A DNA stretch of 31,953 nt from a virus. The stretch is from positions 1 to 31,953 of the IMG/VR virus record IMGVR_UViG_3300032677_000114. One strand, given 5' to 3'. Each line of letters starts with the position of its first letter. The stretch's first letter is position 1. Made by a program: the position numbers and the translations under genes. Below are positions 2,914 through 23,825 of the stretch, in pieces. Under the pieces are notes generated by a model. That model had not been told where the DNA came from. It did not search any database and saw nothing but the letters and a program-made list of their open reading frames with translations.

Positions 2914-4128
2914 ATGTCAAACGCACTTTTAAGCATTAACATGATCACCCGTGAGGCGATCATGCTGTGGCGCAACTCAAACGAGTTTATCCGTAATATC
3001 AACATGCAGTATGATGACTCTTTTGCACGTTCTGGCGGCAAAATTGGTCAGGCACTGCGTATCCGTCTGCCGAACGATTATACCGTTCGTACTGGTCCAG
3101 CAGCTTCTCCACAGGACACCACTGAAACCAGCACAACCTTGGTTGTGTCTACTCAGAAGGGTGTTGACATTGAGTTTAACTCCGTTGAACGTACAATGAC
3201 CTTGGATGACTTCTCGGCTCGTGTGCTGGCTCCCATGGTGAACAACCTTGCTGGTGCTGTTGCAGCAGACGTTATGGGCGGCGCTGAAGGTGGTATCTCA
3301 AACTTTACAGCAAACTTGGATGCAAGCGGCAACGTTTTGAGCCCTCGTCTTGTGGACTTTTTGACTGCTGGTGCGATTTTGGACTTGCGCTCTGCTCCCC
3401 GCAAAGGCCGCAAGATCATCCTCGATCCAATCACCATGGCTCGCAGCGTCAGCACCCTGACCGGCTTGCTTAATCCTTCGGATACGATCTCGAAGCAGTA
3501 CGAAACTGGCATGATTGAAAAATCTGTCAATTTTGAGTTCTTCATGGATCAGACAGTTATTAAGCACAATACTGGTGCTTTCGTGACTGCTCCGACTGTG
3601 GCTGGTGCAAACCAGACTGGCAACAGCTTGACTGTCAGCGCACTGAGCGGCCCGCTCAACATTGGTGACATTATCACCATTGCAAACGTGAACGCAGTCA
3701 ACCGTATTACCAAGCAAAGCACCATGCAGGCTGCCCAGTTTGTTATTACTGCCGCTGCTGCCACTGGCGCAACTTCACTTTCCATCTACCCAGCAATCGT
3801 TCCTCCGATTGGCGGCAACCCAGTTCAGTATCAGACCACAGACTCGTCGCCAGTTAACGGCGCTCAGATCTCAGTTGTGACACCTACTGGCTCCGCTTAT
3901 CGTAAGAACATTGCGTATGCTCCTGAAGCTGTGACTTTGGCCACTGCTGACCTTGAGTTGCCAAAGGGTGTGCATGAAGCTGCTCGTGAGCAGTTTGATG
4001 GGATCTCGATGCGTATGGTGTCGGCTTACAACATCACCAACGACGAGTTTATTACTCGTCTGGACGTTCTTTACGGCTACCTTTGGGTTCGTCCTGAATG
4101 GGCAGTTGCCGTGGGTGACGCGATCTAA
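2914..4128 (+). CDS. Major capsid protein, P22 coat (gp5) family
   Basis: 404 residues, close to the size of P22-type coat proteins. It has the family layout: an N-terminal arm (MSNALLSINMITREAIMLW), a region reading RTGPAASPQDTTETSTTLVV followed by VDIEFNSVERTMTLDDFS, a helical spine with DFLTAGAILDLRSAPRKGRKIILDP, an Ig-like inserted domain around 235-330, and a C-terminal DVLYGYLWVRPEWAV. It forms the icosahedral shell around the scaffold. Codon choice here is visibly more biased, with more C-ending codons and a higher GC content, than in neighbouring genes, as expected for the most highly made protein. A strong ribosome binding site precedes it and a strong terminator follows it. Confidence 0.93.
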   Translation: MSNALLSINMITREAIMLWRNSNEFIRNINMQYDDSFARSGGKIGQALRIRLPNDYTVRTGPAASPQDTTETSTTLVVSTQKGVDIEFNSVERTMTLDDFSARVLAPMVNNLAGAVAADVMGGAEGGISNFTANLDASGNVLSPRLVDFLTAGAILDLRSAPRKGRKIILDPITMARSVSTLTGLLNPSDTISKQYETGMIEKSVNFEFFMDQTVIKHNTGAFVTAPTVAGANQTGNSLTVSALSGPLNIGDIITIANVNAVNRITKQSTMQAAQFVITAAAATGATSLSIYPAIVPPIGGNPVQYQTTDSSPVNGAQISVVTPTGSAYRKNIAYAPEAVTLATADLELPKGVHEAAREQFDGISMRMVSAYNITNDEFITRLDVLYGYLWVRPEWAVAVGDAI

Positions 4129-17020: not shown

Positions 17021-17367
17021 TATTTATCTTCCTCTATTAAATCTTCTTTCAGTCTATCAATAGGACTTAGCTCTTCCAAGCCGATTGTGAATGGAAAACG
17101 ACTTAAAGTCATATCCATTTCGCATGAAGGCTGGTGAAAGCTAAGTCCTTTTTTTATGCCCTGAAAGGTCATTGGAAGTTCACAATAAGCACAATGACCT
17201 TTGAGTTCCAGCATCTTGACTTTAGAGTCATGAAAATCTACAAAATTGGCATAGAAGGTGTAGGAACCGTGGGGACAGGCGGCGGAAGCCGTAGGTCTAC
17301 TCGAGGCCGTGAGAGTTTTTGGGGCGAGGAGTGTAGGTTTGGGTTCCTGCCATTCTACTGATGACAT
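17020..17367 (-). CDS. Small zinc-ribbon protein, 115 aa
   Basis: Starting at the ATG at 17367 (MSSVEWQEPK), the protein has a Pro/Thr/Ser-rich lead, then CPHGSYTFYANFVDFHDSKV and LKGHCAYCELPMTFQG, giving zinc ligands C31, H33, C59 and C62. This C-x-H...C-x2-C arrangement with the FVDxHDxKVKMLEL segment is one I know from other phage genomes as an uncharacterised family. Its first 71 bases overlap the ATPase gene in another frame, and the ribosome binding site is weak, so the exact start is uncertain. It is the last gene of the leftward block. Confidence 0.75.
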   Translation of the reverse strand: MSSVEWQEPKPTLLAPKTLTASSRPTASAACPHGSYTFYANFVDFHDSKVKMLELKGHCAYCELPMTFQGIKKGLSFHQPSCEMDMTLSRFPFTIGLEELSPIDRLKEDLIEEDK

Positions 17368-18943
17368 TGGATCGTTCAGCAATTTCGATGACTCTATGGA
17401 TTTTTTCACTTGGAACTCGCTGGGAAAGAAAGTTGATGATACGAGACTCGTGTACAGGCTTTTTATCCTTAACCCAAATCTGCCACATAAAGAAGTGCAT
17501 TTCTTGAATAACTTGACCATCGGACTTGGATACCATTTCCTTAAAGATGTCTGGCATGGTGGCCTCGGCTGCTAAAAGCCAGTCCTTGGCCCGAGTCAGG
17601 TCGAGAAGGGTGATGCGAAGCTTAGGACTTCGGCTCATCGCAGAGATCATACAAAGCTTAAGGATGTGAAGAATACGTCTGCCGTTATAGTGGGTTAGCT
17701 TGGAGTGCTCGGGCACAGGATCACATCCGCCCAGATACCAACGTTCGATTTCTTTGGCTGCATCTTCATCCCATTGGAAAGCCCCGACCCTTTCGCTCAT
17801 TGCCCCTAAGCTTTCCGCTAGAGCCTTAAATTCCTCCTGCCTGTTCTCGCCCTTGCCGAAAAGCGGCACATGCTTACCGGTGCCGGAATAGACCATGATG
17901 AGCCGTGAGGTGGTGCCCATTGACCAAGCTTCCTCAGGCAAGGTAGCAGCCAAATATCCAGGCTGAGTAGCCGCAAGGATAACTAGCTGCGGATTGCAAA
18001 TGTCTATTGACCTAGCCATGGTGCGGCGTTCTTCTCGATATGACTTAGGATTGTCATATACATAGTTGAGAACGGAGAGGAACTCTAGGTCATGGCTAGG
18101 GACTAGCACCCCGAACTCAGATGCGGCGATGAGCATAGTGTGGTATTCAATCAGGCTTTTGTCTGGAGCCAAAAGTTTCCTGTCTGCCTTCATCAAGGAG
18201 TCGATGAGGCTGGCCTTGGTGACGTTGTTGGGAGCGACATGAAACTTTTGGGCATTAGCATACCAGAGTTGCTCAACCGGATTGATGGCCTGTGTATTAT
18301 GAATTACGGTAAAGTCATCCAGCAAAAATTGACGATCTTGGTCAACTTCAATTCCCCACCAGCGGCCTTGTGAAGCCAGTGAAATATTAAAGCCTACATT
18401 TGTAACGTCTTTTCTTTTAGGCAGCGAGAGTGCAAAATCTTTTACCCCAACTCTCCAAAGTTTCCACTCAGCTTTTTTCGTATTTGACCATTTAAGCCAA
18501 TTCAAGACTGTGACTGTGCAAATTTCTCCTCGGTTAGGATTTTTGCTCTTGCGTAAGGAGAGGATATGCTCTCCATTGCAAAGCCATGATCTGCCTTTGG
18601 TCGGAGTTACCTTATAGAGTTGACCTTCACCTGGAGCTGTGGCAATGACTGTACGAGATTTACCATCTGGGCCGATCAGCAAATCTCCGACTTTGACGGT
18701 TTCAATAGGCACAGCTTTACCGTCATAGGTAAGCACATGCTCTCCGTAAGCAAGGCACTTACCCACAGCTGGCGGGGCTACTAAGAGAGTGAAAAGATTG
18801 GGAAAAAGCACACTTCTACTTGTTTCTACCCATACCCGCCTTTCAAGGGCTCCACTTATTGCGGTGATGCCACTCCAGAGCCGAAAAATGTCTGGAGACG
18901 GAACTCCGTCTGTGTATTTCATAAATGAGTCAATCCAGTCCAC
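17297..18943 (-). CDS. P-loop helicase/primase-type ATPase interrupted by a mini-intein
   Basis: 548 codons, of which residues 63-216 are an intein; the spliced protein would be 394 residues. The N-extein (DWIDSFMKYTDGVPSPDIFRLW, split; LERRVW; SVLFPNLFTLLV) and C-extein (FHVAPNNVTKASLIDSL, LIAASEFGVLVPSHDLEFLS, LVILAATQPGYLAATLPEEAW) match a phage replication ATPase family related to DUF3987 helicase/primase proteins. Joining the exteins restores the Walker A motif APPAVGK-T, so the unspliced protein should be inactive. It lies downstream of the polymerase gene, fitting replication. The exact helicase activity is not proven. Confidence 0.82.
   Translation of the reverse strand: MDWIDSFMKYTDGVPSPDIFRLWSGITAISGALERRVWVETSRSVLFPNLFTLLVAPPAVGKCLAYGEHVLTYDGKAVPIETVKVGDLLIGPDGKSRTVIATAPGEGQLYKVTPTKGRSWLCNGEHILSLRKSKNPNRGEICTVTVLNWLKWSNTKKAEWKLWRVGVKDFALSLPKRKDVTNVGFNISLASQGRWWGIEVDQDRQFLLDDFTVIHNTQAINPVEQLWYANAQKFHVAPNNVTKASLIDSLMKADRKLLAPDKSLIEYHTMLIAASEFGVLVPSHDLEFLSVLNYVYDNPKSYREERRTMARSIDICNPQLVILAATQPGYLAATLPEEAWSMGTTSRLIMVYSGTGKHVPLFGKGENRQEEFKALAESLGAMSERVGAFQWDEDAAKEIERWYLGGCDPVPEHSKLTHYNGRRILHILKLCMISAMSRSPKLRITLLDLTRAKDWLLAAEATMPDIFKEMVSKSDGQVIQEMHFFMWQIWVKDKKPVHESRIINFLSQRVPSEKIHRVIEIAERSNVISRMAGTQTYTPRPKNSHGLE
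18296..18757 (-). other. Mini-intein, 154 aa, in Walker A motif
   Basis: It begins with Cys (CLAYGEHVLTYDGKAVPIET, block A) and continues with VKVGDLLIGPDGKSRTV; block B reads WLCNGEHILSL; block F WWGIEVDQDRQFLLDDFTV; block G VIHN. The terminal His-Asn is followed by Thr as the +1 extein nucleophile. All residues for class 1 protein splicing are present (Cys1, block B His, penultimate His, Asn154, +1 Thr). There is no room for, or trace of, a LAGLIDADG or HNH homing endonuclease. The insertion lies between Lys and Thr of GK-T. Confidence 0.95.
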
Positions 18944-18957
18944 AGGAGTATTCTTTC

Positions 18958-20433
18958 TTAAAGAATGCGGTTGAGGGAGGTAGTGCGCTTGCGCTCATCC
19001 TTGCCCTTGTATTTCATTAAGCCTTCGGGATTGGCTGGGCTATAATTGCCCCAATTCCAGCCAACTTTTGCTTCACCTGGCACTATCAAGGTTCGGCCAT
19101 TGTGGTGAAGTGGAGTCTCGATTAAGCTTAATGCTTTGGAAATAATCCATCCTTCATCCTCCTCTTTGTATTGGAAATAAACTGCGTCATGGACTTGGGC
19201 AGTCAAACGGATCGAGTCCCCTAAGGTATGCCAGATACGCCACAGGGCCAAGTTAAGCCGGTCTCCGGTAGCGCTCTGCGGTGCATAGGCAATGGCCTCG
19301 CGAAGCGTGGTGTCATCGTTTGGTCGCCCAAAGAAGTGGCGAGTACGGCCAAAAACTGTTGTAACCTTTTGAGAGACTTGAAGTTGCTCTGCAACCCAGC
19401 GGTGATACTTCGGTATGCCCTGAAAAGCTTTAAAATAGTTCCGTTGAAAATTCTCCGCAATATAGGTTTCGATCTTAGCATGGCGAGCCATGGTAGGGGG
19501 CAAGCCTCTATAGTTTGACCCGTGGCCTAGCTTTTTGGCCATATCACGATATGAGTACTCACGATAGAATACCGAGTCTGCAATGGCTCGATCCTCCTTT
19601 TTATCTCCTGTCCATTTTAACTCAGGCCAAGCATACTTGCAAACCAAAGTATGCAAGTCTCCAGCGTAACAGGCGTCAAGATAAGTCCAATCATCGAAAA
19701 GAACTCCACAAAGCCAGCCGACCTCACGGCTTTCTGCTTGCTCAAGGTCGATGCCGCAGAGTTTCCAGCCAGGATCGGCGATAAAGATATTGCGAAGCTT
19801 TGGGGCGATGTTTTGCAGATTGGTGCCGGTGCCGGTGGAACTAGAACTTGAACTCCACCTAGCAGTTTCGGTGCCTGCGATGTTGTAACTTGTACGCATC
19901 CTGCCGTCATAATCTACCTCGGTCTGTAGGACACTGAGCTGCTTGCCAATGTCTCGGATTGCGAGAATGGTTCGGATGATAGGACGGGCTATAAAGTAGA
20001 GTTCTAGGGTTTCAAGAGCTTCACGGTCGGTGGAAAGTTTGCGTACCCCTTTTTTGCTCGTCCAGACCTCAGGAAGCTTCATGGCCTCGTAGAAGAATTT
20101 TATAAGTTGGGTGGGGGAGCGTGGATTGAGGGGTTTGCCCCAGACTGCAACTGCAAACTCATCCAGCACCTCTTGGAGAAAAAGGATTTTCTCCTCACAC
20201 TCCTTGATGGAGTTCTGCGCCGAGATCTTGTCTATAAGAAAACCTCTTTGCATCATTTCCAAAGCAGGGGCTTGGAGAGCAAGAGCGAAATTATAGACTT
20301 GGGGATTGACCGGATGGAGGGATTTAAGTTCCCTGAGAACTTCCAGGGTAATGCAGCAATCTAAACCGTTATAGACTTGGTGAGACTCATCTTTGGTCGC
20401 AGGGGCATAAGTCGAGGTTTTAATTACCGGCAT
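18958..20433 (-). CDS. DNA polymerase I family, polymerase part (split gene, second half)
   Basis: 491 residues. It begins at the end of the exonuclease domain: Exo III is YNGLD (Y21, D25). The polymerase domain has motif A GIDLEQAESREVGW (D229), motif B RDMAKKLGHGSNYRG (R296, K300, Y308) and motif C QVHDAVYF (H415, D416; Ala replaces the usual Glu after Asp). There is thus no complete proofreading domain in this chain: Exo I and II are in the gene at 21005-22045. AGAGG upstream of the ATG and a 14-base overlap with the preceding gene indicate separate translation. The first 16 residues (MPVIKTSTYAPATKDE) look unlike a family N-terminus. Confidence 0.9.
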   Translation of the reverse strand: MPVIKTSTYAPATKDESHQVYNGLDCCITLEVLRELKSLHPVNPQVYNFALALQAPALEMMQRGFLIDKISAQNSIKECEEKILFLQEVLDEFAVAVWGKPLNPRSPTQLIKFFYEAMKLPEVWTSKKGVRKLSTDREALETLELYFIARPIIRTILAIRDIGKQLSVLQTEVDYDGRMRTSYNIAGTETARWSSSSSSTGTGTNLQNIAPKLRNIFIADPGWKLCGIDLEQAESREVGWLCGVLFDDWTYLDACYAGDLHTLVCKYAWPELKWTGDKKEDRAIADSVFYREYSYRDMAKKLGHGSNYRGLPPTMARHAKIETYIAENFQRNYFKAFQGIPKYHRWVAEQLQVSQKVTTVFGRTRHFFGRPNDDTTLREAIAYAPQSATGDRLNLALWRIWHTLGDSIRLTAQVHDAVYFQYKEEDEGWIISKALSLIETPLHHNGRTLIVPGEAKVGWNWGNYSPANPEGLMKYKGKDERKRTTSLNRIL

Positions 20434-20830
20434 TTTGGCCTCTTTTTGCAGCTTGAAAAGTTTTTAGATATTTGCGAAACTCAGTTAAATTTGCCACCTT
20501 GATAATGTCGGGGTGGTGCTGCCAAGTTCCGAAGTCCTTATGGTTTCCGATCAGGACAACTGGAAGTCCCAGACATAGGGCATAGCCAACTTCAACCAAA
20601 GCCCCTCTAAGCTGATCATTTTCATGAGCGTAAACTGCAACTAAATCTGCACTTTCAATATCTTCAAAATCCTCAACCCAAAACTCGCGGGCATTGGCTG
20701 GAGTTTCCTGAGTTTTATTTGCCCAATGTTTAATCCACCTCGCATGGATATAAATTTCCTTCCACCTATCGTGAAGGTCAAGCCAAAACCAGCCCAGTGG
20801 GATTTTGGAAGCAGGGTAAACTCGTAACAT
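20420..20830 (-). CDS. Nucleoside 2-deoxyribosyltransferase-like protein
   Basis: 136 residues from the ATG at 20830, which has a strong AGGAG site; the open frame further upstream is not needed. Family features are MLRVYPASKI (first strand), WIKHWANK, DIESADLVAVYAHENDQLRG (D-x-x-x-x-AD) and GALVEVGYALCLGLPVVLIG, with the Glu of VEVG in the place of the catalytic Glu. These enzymes move or remove bases from deoxynucleosides; some relatives in phages are nucleotide-pool enzymes and the fold is close to TIR. It sits between the two halves of the DNA polymerase. Confidence 0.8.
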   Translation of the reverse strand: MLRVYPASKIPLGWFWLDLHDRWKEIYIHARWIKHWANKTQETPANAREFWVEDFEDIESADLVAVYAHENDQLRGALVEVGYALCLGLPVVLIGNHKDFGTWQHHPDIIKVANLTEFRKYLKTFQAAKRGQNAGN

Positions 20831-21004
20831 GGTATCTCCTAGGACGATCAGAATATGAGATAAAGGAAAGGAAAGCAAGGCCATAATTTGACACACATTT
20901 GAGGCGTGGCGGCAAAGTATGGGAAGGGATAGGCAATCATACATGGGATAAAAGATGCCCGCCCATGACCTTCTAATGGCCTTGGTGGAACTAGGACTAA
21001 AATC
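20831..21004 (-). other. Non-coding, probably structured leader inside the split polymerase locus
   Basis: 174 bases between the stop of the glycosylase/exonuclease gene and the ATG of the deoxyribosyltransferase-like gene. CAAGGCCAT (20876-20884) and ATGGCCTTG (20976-20984) form a perfect 9-bp stem around 91 bases, which contain a second repeat CATGGG/CCCATG (20942-20947, 20962-20967). Just after the upstream stop, - strand TAGGAT-TTTA-GTCCTA can fold into a hairpin. GTCCTAG recurs next to the AGGAG site of the downstream gene. I could not recognise a riboswitch or a complete group I intron core. Confidence 0.5.
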
Positions 21005-22045
21005 CTATTCATCCTTCTTGAGCGTGGTTTTGCGATAAGTGTTCTTCCATGACGACTCGTTGGTGTAGATGGAGCCAAGGAAGCCAAGACCTTTTTGCAA
21101 CTCTGGGTAAAGGGCATGGTGAAGCAGCATAGTGTCCTCAGTGCAATTTTGAATTTTAAGGCCCATTCGGAGGATGTACTGGAGATCATAGAGGCCGTTC
21201 TGGAATACCTTGGGGATAGGAGAGCTTAAAAGGGTTTCGACGAAATTCCAAGCATCAAGCTCAAGGTCAGGGGTAGGCCAATAGGATTTGCCGGAGTAAT
21301 CTACAAAGGGAATTACCATGGCTTTTGTGGGGCTGGAAGCAAAACCGATGCAAGTGATTTGGCCTAGGCGAGTTTCAATGTCCACACCGAGGTATAATGC
21401 TGAGGAATTTTCTTGCCACCATTCGAGCATTTCCTCAAAGCTGGGGCTAATGAGGATTTCCCTTTCCGGTCTGCGGATTTCAGGAAAATGACGCTCCCTT
21501 TCCGCTTTCATCAAATCCGTTATCACGATTACTCGAAGTGCCCAGTTACGCATAACTGCGGCTGGGTTATAGGTGGGAAGGACTTTGAGGTCATCGACTA
21601 GGGTAGAGTAGGCTACGGTGCCTCGAAGGGAGCCGATGCCGCTGGAATTGAGGAGTGCCCAGCAAGCCGTATTGCCTAAGGCCAAGGTAAGGTTAGGCTT
21701 TACGATCTGGAGTTCTTGCTGGAGTCTTGCAACTTCGCCCAAGAGTTCTGGCTTGATATACTTGCCCATGCCGTAAGGCGGCATTGGGTAGCCAAGGCCA
21801 GCTTCCTTCTTATTGACACAGATTTTCTCAATATCTCCTTGCGGAGGTTTAAAGTTAAAAACACTGGTTAAAAAGCACTCACTTCTCGAGATCCCCGCCT
21901 CGGCTAACATACGGGTAAGTTCTTGGCCGGAACTGCCCATGAAAGGCAGCTTGGTCATTTCTTCCTGATCTCCCCATGCTTCGCCGACTATGGCGATCCG
22001 AGCATTTCGCGGGCCGTTAGTGGAGTAGAAGGGAGCTGAGGTCAT
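21005..22045 (-). CDS. Uracil-DNA glycosylase domain fused to 3'-5' exonuclease half (split DNA polymerase, first half)
   Basis: 346 residues. Residues 15-180 are a family 4-like UDG domain: VGEAWGDQEE (21-29), PFMGSSGQELTRML (34-47), LGNTACWALL (123-132), YNPAAVMRN (159-167). The N-terminal Cys pair for the Fe-S cluster is absent and the usual HPA is NPA, so glycosylase activity may be altered or lost. Residues 217-346 begin a DnaQ-like exonuclease: Exo I GVDIETR (D222, E224), Exo II FQNGLYDLQYILRM (N283, D287), then EDTMLLHH and GFLGSIYTNESSWK. It stops with KKDE before Exo III. SPO1-like and many phage polymerases have this UDG-exo-pol order in one chain. Starts in an ATGA overlap. Confidence 0.88.
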   Translation of the reverse strand: MTSAPFYSTNGPRNARIAIVGEAWGDQEEMTKLPFMGSSGQELTRMLAEAGISRSECFLTSVFNFKPPQGDIEKICVNKKEAGLGYPMPPYGMGKYIKPELLGEVARLQQELQIVKPNLTLALGNTACWALLNSSGIGSLRGTVAYSTLVDDLKVLPTYNPAAVMRNWALRVIVITDLMKAERERHFPEIRRPEREILISPSFEEMLEWWQENSSALYLGVDIETRLGQITCIGFASSPTKAMVIPFVDYSGKSYWPTPDLELDAWNFVETLLSSPIPKVFQNGLYDLQYILRMGLKIQNCTEDTMLLHHALYPELQKGLGFLGSIYTNESSWKNTYRKTTLKKDE

Positions 22046-22431
22046 TCTGAGCGTTCACTTTGGTTAAGGTCAAAAAGATCAGGTAGCTTAATTTGGGTCT
22101 CCCTTTCTTCCAGCATACACTTGAAAAGTAAGAGATAGACGATGATGTCATCGCAGCGAGAAGCTAGGGTTTCCAGTCGCTTAATGCCGGTGATCCCTGC
22201 CCGCATATCTTGCTCGTATTGCATGAGGGCGTCCCAGTGCTTGGCGGCATATATTCTCCAGATGGTTTCCATGGGAAGGCCGGTGGCATTAGCATGGCGG
22301 CGGAAATTGCCCAGCCGATCACCAGTTCCGGCATATTCACGGCCTTTAAGTTCACCCAAAGCTTTGAGTTGGGTAATGGTGTCTTTGACGATCTCATTGT
22401 AACGCTTGATAGGAAAATGTGGCTTGGTCAT
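22042..22431 (-). CDS. Conserved phage hypothetical protein, 129 aa
   Basis: Mostly helical, with the pattern LKGREYAGTGDRLGNFRRHA, then WRIYAAKHWDALMQYEQDMR and RCDDIIVYLLLFKCMLEER. The aKHWDal and R-x-DDiivYllLfk motifs recur in other phage replication regions as I know them, and recall MazG-like or nucleotide-modification-associated helical proteins, but I cannot place it firmly. It overlaps both neighbours by four bases (ATGA), between the ParB-methyltransferase and the glycosylase/polymerase gene, hinting at nucleotide or genome metabolism. Confidence 0.72.
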   Translation of the reverse strand: MTKPHFPIKRYNEIVKDTITQLKALGELKGREYAGTGDRLGNFRRHANATGLPMETIWRIYAAKHWDALMQYEQDMRAGITGIKRLETLASRCDDIIVYLLLFKCMLEERETQIKLPDLFDLNQSERSE

Positions 22432-23825
22432 TTTGAAAGTCTCCGGAGGGCTTGTGCTTGTTTAAAACTTCTTAAGGCATTAGTGTAGTGTTCAGGGGAA
22501 ATTTCTAAGCCAAGAACTTGCTTTGCGCCTAGTTGATCTGCGGCATGAAGGGCGTTGCCGCTGCCACATGTTGGGTCAAGCATCCGTGTGTTTTCGTCCA
22601 CGAACATAGACATGAAAGACTTGAGCATCGCAATGTTTTTGGCAGAATTATGATTGGTTTTGTCGGTAGGGGCAGAGTAGGAATTGGAGACCGATCTGAG
22701 AATGTAGCGATCTTCGCGACTGGCGATAAGACAAGTTTCGTATATTCGGCGTGGCCCACGCTTGGGATCAGGCAAGATGCCAACATTGTCACTCTTAGTC
22801 CAGATAAGAGGGAATTTTTGAACTTGAAGGCTTGGTGCATGGGTAGCAAAGAACTCGAGAGTTTCATGATAGTGCTCCATTGAAAACCAGAACATAAGAT
22901 GAGCCGATGGGCTCATTAGCTTGTCTAAGTTTTTGCATAGGCAACCGAGGAGAGTCCAATAGACATCTGGGGAGTCGGAATACTGCTCCCAACGCTGGCT
23001 GCCACTCATCTTTCCTGCGTTATAGTTGACTCCATAGGGGAAATCGCAATGGATGAAATTGAAGGGCTGGCCAGTGTAAGCTTCTGTCCACTCAAGAAAA
23101 TTCACGTTCAAGATTGGGTCTGGAGAAGGCTCGGTTGGGGACGAAGCTGCGGCACGGGCTGGGGCATAGGTGTCTTTGGCGGGCTTTGGAGAGCCTTCGG
23201 TCTGATCCTCACTTTCCGGTGCCTCATTTCCTTCTTCTCGCTTTGGTGGGTCGCTAAGTTCATCCCCAAAAGTAACTGTGGCATTGATGATGTCGCTGAG
23301 GGCATCTCCGGTAGCCCGTTGGTCAACTCGACTAAGGATATTGTAAGCAACTCGATAGGAAGTAGCTTCGCTGATCCGAGGATTGTCGATGTCGCGAGCA
23401 ACTCGCAAAATGGAACTAAGAAGTCCTGTGCCGAGGCCGAGGGCATCAGCGGTCTTGCTTTGACTCCAATCCGGCTGGAGGGAGTAGAGATCATGAATGG
23501 CGGAATAGGCTGTTACAAGGTCACGCCAATCAAGGTCGCTGCGTTTGACGTTTTCCTCTAACTCAATAATTTGGGCTTCGATAGGATCGAGGTCCTCGAG
23601 ATACCGGCATGGAATGTCGAAAAGGCCAGCGGCTTTGGAAGCCTCAAACCTACGTTCACCAGCCACTAGCACGTTGTCTTTGGTGATGATAATAGGGTTC
23701 AGGACTCCTCGCTTAGAAACCGAGTCCACAAGGTTGCTCACGTCGATTACTTTTCGCTGACGTTCCTCCCTCAACACCTTGATCTCGGTGAGGGGTATGC
23801 GTTGAAATTCTTGCTGGCTAGCCAT
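22428..23825 (-). CDS. ParB-domain / DNA methyltransferase fusion
   Basis: 465 residues. Residues about 8-170 are ParB/Srx-like: IPLTEIKVLREERQRK, GVLNPIIITKDNVLVAGERRFEA (split; GERR 56-59), a helix-turn-helix region around 115-145 (WSQSKTADALGLGTGLLSSIL). Residues 190-236 are an acidic then Ala/Pro/Ser linker. Residues 237-465 are an amino-methyltransferase in beta order: motif IV CDFPYG (260-264; a DPPY variant) precedes motif I DPTCGSGNAL (417-426), with GLEIS (439-443) as motif II. It probably methylates adenine N6 or cytosine N4 in phage DNA. Four- and one-base overlaps tie it to its neighbours. Confidence 0.88.
   Translation of the reverse strand: MASQQEFQRIPLTEIKVLREERQRKVIDVSNLVDSVSKRGVLNPIIITKDNVLVAGERRFEASKAAGLFDIPCRYLEDLDPIEAQIIELEENVKRSDLDWRDLVTAYSAIHDLYSLQPDWSQSKTADALGLGTGLLSSILRVARDIDNPRISEATSYRVAYNILSRVDQRATGDALSDIINATVTFGDELSDPPKREEGNEAPESEDQTEGSPKPAKDTYAPARAAASSPTEPSPDPILNVNFLEWTEAYTGQPFNFIHCDFPYGVNYNAGKMSGSQRWEQYSDSPDVYWTLLGCLCKNLDKLMSPSAHLMFWFSMEHYHETLEFFATHAPSLQVQKFPLIWTKSDNVGILPDPKRGPRRIYETCLIASREDRYILRSVSNSYSAPTDKTNHNSAKNIAMLKSFMSMFVDENTRMLDPTCGSGNALHAADQLGAKQVLGLEISPEHYTNALRSFKQAQALRRLSK

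Follow-up and report, generated by a model that had tools for sequence, protein, structure and literature searches.

The window analysed here is a phage contig of 31,953 nt (IMG/VR record IMGVR_UViG_3300032677_000114, positions 1 to 31,953), and the element under study is a family A DNA polymerase (PolA) locus on its minus strand. The polymerase gene was found to be divided into two open reading frames (ORFs), with the break inside the exonuclease domain: a first chain (N chain) carries a uracil-DNA glycosylase (UDG) domain and the exonuclease motifs Exo I and Exo II, and a second chain (C chain) carries Exo III and the polymerase domain. Very probably, the phage has a family A polymerase that is stably fractured, with two independently translated subunits completing one proofreading site in trans, and the break goes back to a single event in the ancestor of a large clade of phages. 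The features of the locus are as follows (window positions, with the supporting evidence in brackets).

21005..22045, minus strand: N chain, 346 aa, with the UDG domain, Exo I and Exo II (Pfam; phrog_17; kept in all relatives)
21374..21382, minus strand: Exo I, D222 to E224 (D in 84/84 and E in 84/84 relatives with the column filled)
21185..21187, minus strand: catalytic D287 of Exo II, motif FQNGLYD (D in 85/85 relatives with the column filled)
21005..21019, minus strand: conserved N-chain end point, tail KKDE and stop, AAGAAGGATGAATAG (identical end point in 86 loci)
20434..21004, minus strand: gap of 571 nt, from N-chain stop to C-chain start (ORF positions; no intron family)
20420..20830, minus strand: deoxyribosyltransferase-like gene, 136 aa, whose end overlaps the C-chain start by 14 nt (PF05014 below cut-off; phrog_7995; gap homologues)
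18958..20433, minus strand: C chain, 491 aa, with a 20-residue head, Exo III and the thumb, fingers and palm of a family A polymerase (Pfam DNA_pol_A; phrog_17)
20374..20433, minus strand: C-chain head MPVIKTSTYAPATKDESHQV, an addition unseen in one-chain relatives (motif; ratio of nonsynonymous to synonymous substitution rates, dN/dS; strand in the models of the relative L157)
20359..20373, minus strand: Exo III, YNGLD, Y21 and D25 of the C chain (Y in 86/86, D in 86/86; aligned with Klenow Y497/D501)

Domain composition of the two chains

When compared with Pfam, the N chain matched UDG (PF03167; 1.3e-20, 74.3 bits versus a cut-off of 24.3) and, also above cut-off, DNA_pol_A_exo1 (PF01612), and the C chain matched DNA_pol_A (PF00476; 2.7e-33, 115.9 bits versus a cut-off of 34.3). 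The nearest solved structures of the UDG domain included type-4 UDGs. The two chains can be regarded as consecutive parts of one protein, because they matched successive stretches of phrog_17, a single DNA-polymerase profile of PHROG (478-798 for the N chain and 809-1234 for the C chain). The Klenow structure (1kln) aligned to the C-chain profile from chain position 173 onward; with residue numbers inferred from the Klenow start at residue 324, Y21 and D25 are the predicted equivalents of E. coli Y497 and D501. Since the Klenow match of the C chain begins at E. coli Tyr497, the two chains are separated after Exo II and before Exo III.

Thus, instead of the single ORF of a one-chain UDG-exonuclease-polymerase enzyme, the window contains two frames, with a stop, a gap and a new start between them. 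The DEDD-type set of motifs (Exo I DxE, Exo II Nx(2-3)YD and Exo III YxxxD) is present, but divided between the chains. The first-pass annotation, made from the sequence alone, had placed Exo I and Exo II (D222, E224, D287) at the end of the UDG-containing chain and Exo III (YNGLD) at residue 21 of the polymerase chain, leaving a full proofreading site on neither chain alone; comparison with the relatives, in which these residues form invariant columns, bore out this description.

Conservation of the split among related phages

IMG/VR was searched with a profile of either chain, and each search yielded 80 loci; because neither search depends on the split, one-chain members would have turned up equally. 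The resulting set of relatives comprised 86 loci with both junction ends and distinct junction peptides, and the split was located in the same loop in all 86. The N chain always ended a few residues past a conserved ...EasWK... sequence, with a tail like KKDE or KRDE followed by a stop, and the C chain began with a head like MPIIxTxEL. More precisely, N chains stopped 12-17 residues past the conserved WK, and C-chain heads measured 17-28 residues. In one-chain relatives, the loop from WK to Exo III was 16-23 residues long, and this variable length makes it plausible as a break-tolerant site.

A search with one-chain relatives returned single full-length frames at 81 of the 91 loci. In a tree of 104 rows, the split rows (61 out of 61) lay on one side of a branch with a support of 100 (Shimodaira-Hasegawa-like approximate likelihood-ratio test, SH-aLRT), Caulobacter phage Kuura being basal among them, and the sister clade consisted of one-chain UDG-exonuclease-polymerase enzymes. 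No refusion of the two chains was seen among the clade members examined. This comparison with intact relatives had been proposed in the first-pass annotation, and it separated the two groups clearly; the accompanying statement that one chain is the normal state holds for the sister clade, but not for the clade of the window, in which every member examined is split.

Some loci departed from the common arrangement. In L044 (3941-7509), the enzyme is encoded by three cistrons, namely UDG (247 aa), Exo I-II (a free gene of 136 aa) and Exo III-polymerase, each overlapping the next by a start or stop codon, with small genes between the polymerase pieces. The C chain of L098 and L099 contains about 285 extra residues inside the polymerase domain, which may be an intein or a large insertion and had no Pfam match. 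PolA breaks at other places were also observed, just after Exo III in L168 (MW202554, 728-3365) and inside the polymerase domain in the Vibrio phage vB_VspS_VS-ABTNL-3 (L011, MF497422, 873-4007). A pattern search of genome contigs gave no relatives and hence no host link.

Catalytic residues and selection

Wherever the column was filled in the 86 loci, the catalytic residues were invariant on both chains (Exo I D 84/84 and E 84/84; Exo II D 85/85; Exo III Y 86/86 and D 86/86). The aspartates of polymerase motifs A and C were found in 82 and 80 of the 86 loci, respectively, the remainder being mostly gaps from truncated loci. dN/dS was 0.087 for the exonuclease part of the N chain, 0.114 for the C-chain head, and 0.104 for the polymerase; by these estimates, the exonuclease and the head are under purifying selection. 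The head motif, M-P-I-[IV]-x-T-x-E-L, was conserved for T in 81 and for L in 71 of the 86 loci.

Gap length and alternative explanations

Gap length in the clade ranged from -4 nt (L161, where stop and start overlap, GACGAATGAAAG) and 2 nt (L138 and L082) to 4,643 nt. L161 and L082 are nested in the clade beside relatives with gaps of 330 and 1,235 nt (L149 and L081, respectively), and material therefore appears to enter and leave the gap while the chains stay unchanged.

The contig is metagenomic, and the first-pass annotation had asked whether an assembly error joined two genomes at this point. An assembly or sequencing error is practically out of the question, since three other assemblies contain this junction (L001 and L005/L091, the latter being one contig, each match at 901 of 901 bases, and L002 at 893 of 901); moreover, the split is shared by the cultured phage Kuura and by 86 distinct loci. 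The gap could also be a self-splicing group I or group II intron with an ORF, whose removal from the mRNA would restore an ordinary single-chain polymerase. Introns do occur in phage DNA polymerase genes, an intron was conjectured by the authors who reported a split PolA in OM43 phages (PMC10580990), and in the window AAGGATGA and AAAGATGA, near the ends of the gap, are superficially repeat-like. However, an Rfam search of the window stretch up to E 5 found no intron, its sole match being a chance snoRNA outside the gap, and a search of 14 loci at gathering scores found none either; the gap is reduced to -4, 2 and 2 nt in three members; its contents are unrelated between many relatives; and splicing would take out the C-chain head, although this part is conserved and evolves under purifying selection. 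With a gap running from -4 to 4,643 nt and carrying changing cargo, splicing as a general explanation is ruled out, and we regard an intron as very improbable. Of the two possibilities named in the first-pass annotation, assembly in trans is thus strongly supported, whereas splicing is contradicted. Ligation of the two chains at the protein level, by split-intein halves, seems even more far-fetched than an intron. It has a counterpart in the PolB of phage MIJ3, which is split with an intein (PMC6892783), and the helicase/primase next to the polymerase in the window has a Hint-domain insert; nevertheless, neither polymerase chain had a Hint match, although that neighbouring ORF scored, and both the N-chain end (12-17 residues past WK) and the C-chain head (17-28 residues) are too short for intein halves.

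Another explanation would be that UDG is the only function left to the N chain, its exonuclease being dead or structural, and that the C chain polymerises without proofreading. Exonuclease activity is indeed only inferred here, and the exonuclease has been lost in some phage PolA variants (divPolA1, PMC11348598). On the other hand, all five exonuclease residues are invariant wherever aligned in the 86 loci, the exonuclease part of the N chain has a dN/dS of only 0.087, and L044 keeps the exonuclease piece as a gene of its own, without UDG. Catalytic residues of a dead exonuclease would not be expected to be kept on two separately translated chains, which makes this explanation improbable, and the degenerate exonuclease domain that the first-pass annotation had envisaged as a refutation is excluded by their invariance across both chains.

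Translation signals

In the window, the C chain starts before the gap gene has ended (ATGCCGGTAATTAA), and GAGG lies upstream of this start. Shine-Dalgarno cores were found before 30 of the 86 C-chain starts, compared with 17% of background ATGs, i.e., at twice the background frequency. The DNA encoding the N tail is purine-rich (AAGARRGAY), and its arginine codons were AGR in 25 of 42 cases, versus 20% in the rest of the chain. Because of this skew to AGR in a purine-rich tail, the N tail probably doubles as the ribosome-binding site of the next cistron. The tail peptide K-[KR]-D-[ED] was conserved (K 84/86, D 76/86) and was considered as a docking peptide; this idea was rejected, as the codon skew makes it likely that the conservation is at least partly that of a ribosome-binding sequence. 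Ribosome binding is better supported than docking as the reason why the N chain always ends at this point. We also observed a hydrophobic frame of 54 codons (21012-20848, minus strand) that begins at an ATG inside the N-chain tail of the window; similar -8 starts occur in many relatives and are possibly due to chance.

Structural models and proposed assembly

For structure prediction, we used L157, whose gap of 180 nt is in frame, and modelled it as one chain, with the stops read as serine and the gap as a linker; this read-through is a modelling device and implies no natural read-through. The AlphaFold model (44 rows) had a predicted local distance difference test (pLDDT) score of 87 and a predicted template modelling (pTM) score of 0.83, and was disordered only at 330-395, around the linker, and in the last 11 residues. 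It superposed on Klenow residues 324-928 across both chains (1kln; Z 30.1, root-mean-square deviation (rmsd) 3.4 Å over 553). A control model built from 20 split members only gave similar values (pLDDT 81.6, pTM 0.75; 1kln, Z 28.3, rmsd 2.9 over 552). In both models, the head formed a short strand at 400-403.

Judging from these models, the chains would form a Klenow-like heterodimer with a shared proofreading site. We propose that two cistrons of one operon encode the polymerase and that the break lies in a loop at the protein surface, after Exo II and before Exo III. One subunit would contribute UDG, Exo I and Exo II, and the other the Exo III helix and the polymerase; the two would be translated independently and then associate. 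In the rebuilt Klenow-like enzyme, the 3'-5' site would consist of three acidic residues from the N chain and of a tyrosine and an aspartate from the C chain. Since the split, other small genes would have docked in the space between the cistrons, mainly genes of the nucleotide pool such as the deoxyribosyltransferase-like ones; the gap gene of the window is one of several cargo types.

The split, its conservation, the intact motifs, the purifying selection, the single clade and the absence of splicing are directly established. Four points weigh against the proposed two-subunit enzyme: the association of the chains and their proofreading rest on inference; the models are single-chain, read-through predictions for a relative instead of true two-chain predictions, made by a program to which the PolA fold is familiar; the dN/dS values come from six independent pairs, with few head codons; and Shine-Dalgarno cores precede only 30 of the 86 C-chain starts, even at twice the background.

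Genes in the gap

The gap ORF of the window, the only annotatable gene in those 571 nt, matched the nucleoside 2-deoxyribosyltransferase family PF05014 with 24.6 bits (2.9e-5), below the cut-off of 28.8. Its start is likely to be the ATG at 20830, which has AGGAG upstream, rather than that at 20944. Gap homologues in L056, L070 and L076 have its conserved positions, including the glutamate E80, and the protein may still work like a deoxyribosyltransferase. The deoxyribosyltransferase-like gene announced for this gap in the first-pass annotation is present and has three homologues in other gaps, but the family call is a weak one, given the score below cut-off.

Almost every gap ORF of at least 55 aa lay on the coding strand. 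Three kinds of deoxyribosyltransferase-like gene (DUF7768, DUF1937 and the type found in the window) together occurred in 39 of the 86 gaps and nowhere in about 612 kb of flanking DNA. DUF7220 was found in 22 gaps and no flanks, MazG-like genes in 7 gaps and one flank, and HNH genes 7 times in gaps and 8 times outside; chance figures for these gap versus flank counts are only indicative, as they ignore shared ancestry. When 26 whole records were considered, the DUF7768 family occurred eight times, each time in the gap according to the converted coordinates. Gaps also contained, once or twice each, genes for ribonucleotide reductase, DNA ligase, HAD and a YfbR-like nucleotidase. The three deoxyribosyltransferase-like kinds could not be treated as one family: profile comparison gave no significant link, and they are grouped here by Pfam and PHROG names only.

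MazG and DUF7220 also adjoin the polymerase in one-chain relatives, and for this reason the gap seems to draw on the usual neighbours of the polymerase. In L003, L013, L039, L066 and L094, the gap ends with the gene of the small DUF7220 protein, which immediately precedes the C chain; in several one-chain relatives, a DUF7220 gene precedes the whole polymerase. Together with the UDG domain, the gap genes may help to keep the nucleotide pool clean.

Origin and possible use of the split

The split may have been made by insertion of a homing endonuclease, as has been proposed for the T4-like genes nrdA, gene 60 and gene 43, with the present gap genes having replaced the endonuclease; this concerns the origin only and is compatible with the two-subunit explanation. 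Split T4-type genes are a documented precedent (PMC2988022), and HNH genes are present in 7 of the 86 gaps. Nonetheless, similar numbers of HNH genes lie inside (7) and outside (8) the gap, though the gap is the smaller space, and the basal phage Kuura has two short, unannotated gap genes, neither of which is called an endonuclease. In the window, the gap holds the deoxyribosyltransferase-like ORF in the place where a homing endonuclease might be expected. Finally, L205, which belongs to the one-chain clade, is interrupted by an in-frame TAA in the loop where the clade of the window is split (around 3240-3255), with a new ATG behind GGAGG at the right distance (GGAGGATAACCCATG); this stop and restart without insertion implies that an insertion is not needed. 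It is possible that L205 represents an independent split starting without insertion, or else a sequencing error. On balance, a homing origin is conceivable, although we think it unlikely.

As to what the split may be useful for, we offer a speculation that we consider doubtful, more so than the homing origin: the UDG-exonuclease subunit could be a dissociable fidelity module that the phage regulates, in dose or attachment, independently of the polymerase, and the gap-encoded deoxyribosyltransferase-like enzymes could belong to the same machine, cleaning the nucleotide pool by the replisome.

Neighbouring genes in the window

The polymerase adjoins a DUF3987 helicase/primase gene (17297-18943, minus strand), whose Hint-domain, intein-like insert lies in the Walker A motif (PPAVGKC...VIHNTQ); in the homologue of L004 (6549-7781), GKSV is uninterrupted. 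On the other side, at 22428-23825 on the minus strand, a ParB N-terminal domain is fused to an N6/N4 DNA methyltransferase, and a ParB-like or methyltransferase gene was also found near the polymerase in several related phages.

Significance and comparison with known systems

The usual view of proofreading polymerases is that exonuclease and polymerase must share one chain or be whole-domain subunits. In the present case, a deep clade of phages that includes the cultured Kuura appears to have kept an active site divided between two polypeptides since one ancestral event. The split makes it testable whether subunit supply tunes fidelity, and it offers a natural site for engineering a two-part proofreading polymerase. 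It is also a warning for annotation, as genes labelled 'hypothetical protein' in phages of this clade are half of a replicase. The gap as a preferred home of deoxyribosyltransferase-like genes raises a second question.

Neither the paper on Kuura (PMC9959647) nor two surveys of PolA and a survey of polymerase swapping mention the split, and a literature search, with most subscription journals outside its scope, gave no description of a UDG-exonuclease/polymerase split through the proofreading site. Fractured phage replication genes are already known, whereas for a split through the proofreader in a family A clade we found no description in the literature searched.

The one-chain UDG-exonuclease-polymerase enzyme of family A has been described in Pseudomonas phage PaBG (PMC7412058). 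That of Microcystis phage Mel-JY34 (MW202489) shares with the window the domain order, the catalytic motifs, full-length homology and a DUF3987 gene following the polymerase; one-chain enzymes differ in having a loop of 16-23 residues where the clade of the window has a stop, a gap and a new head of 17-28 residues. Kuura gp29 and gp26 (OQ067476) are split as in the window, with two small gap genes, but are annotated only as 'hypothetical protein' and 'DNA polymerase'. In the OM43 phages MEP401 and MEP402, for which the authors suggested a possible intron (PMC10580990), and in Vibrio phage vB_VspS_VS-ABTNL-3, a family A polymerase is likewise encoded by two ORFs with a small gene between them, but the cut lies inside the polymerase domain. 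The split gene 43 (43A/43B) of Aeromonas phages 25 and 44RR and the split nrdA of Aeh1, whose parts co-purify or work together (PMC2988022), resemble the present case in that a phage replication enzyme is made as two polypeptides with other DNA between the parts. However, 43A/43B is a family B polymerase split in few phages, whereas here a family A polymerase is split throughout a whole deep clade, with the cut in the proofreading site and changing genes in the gap.

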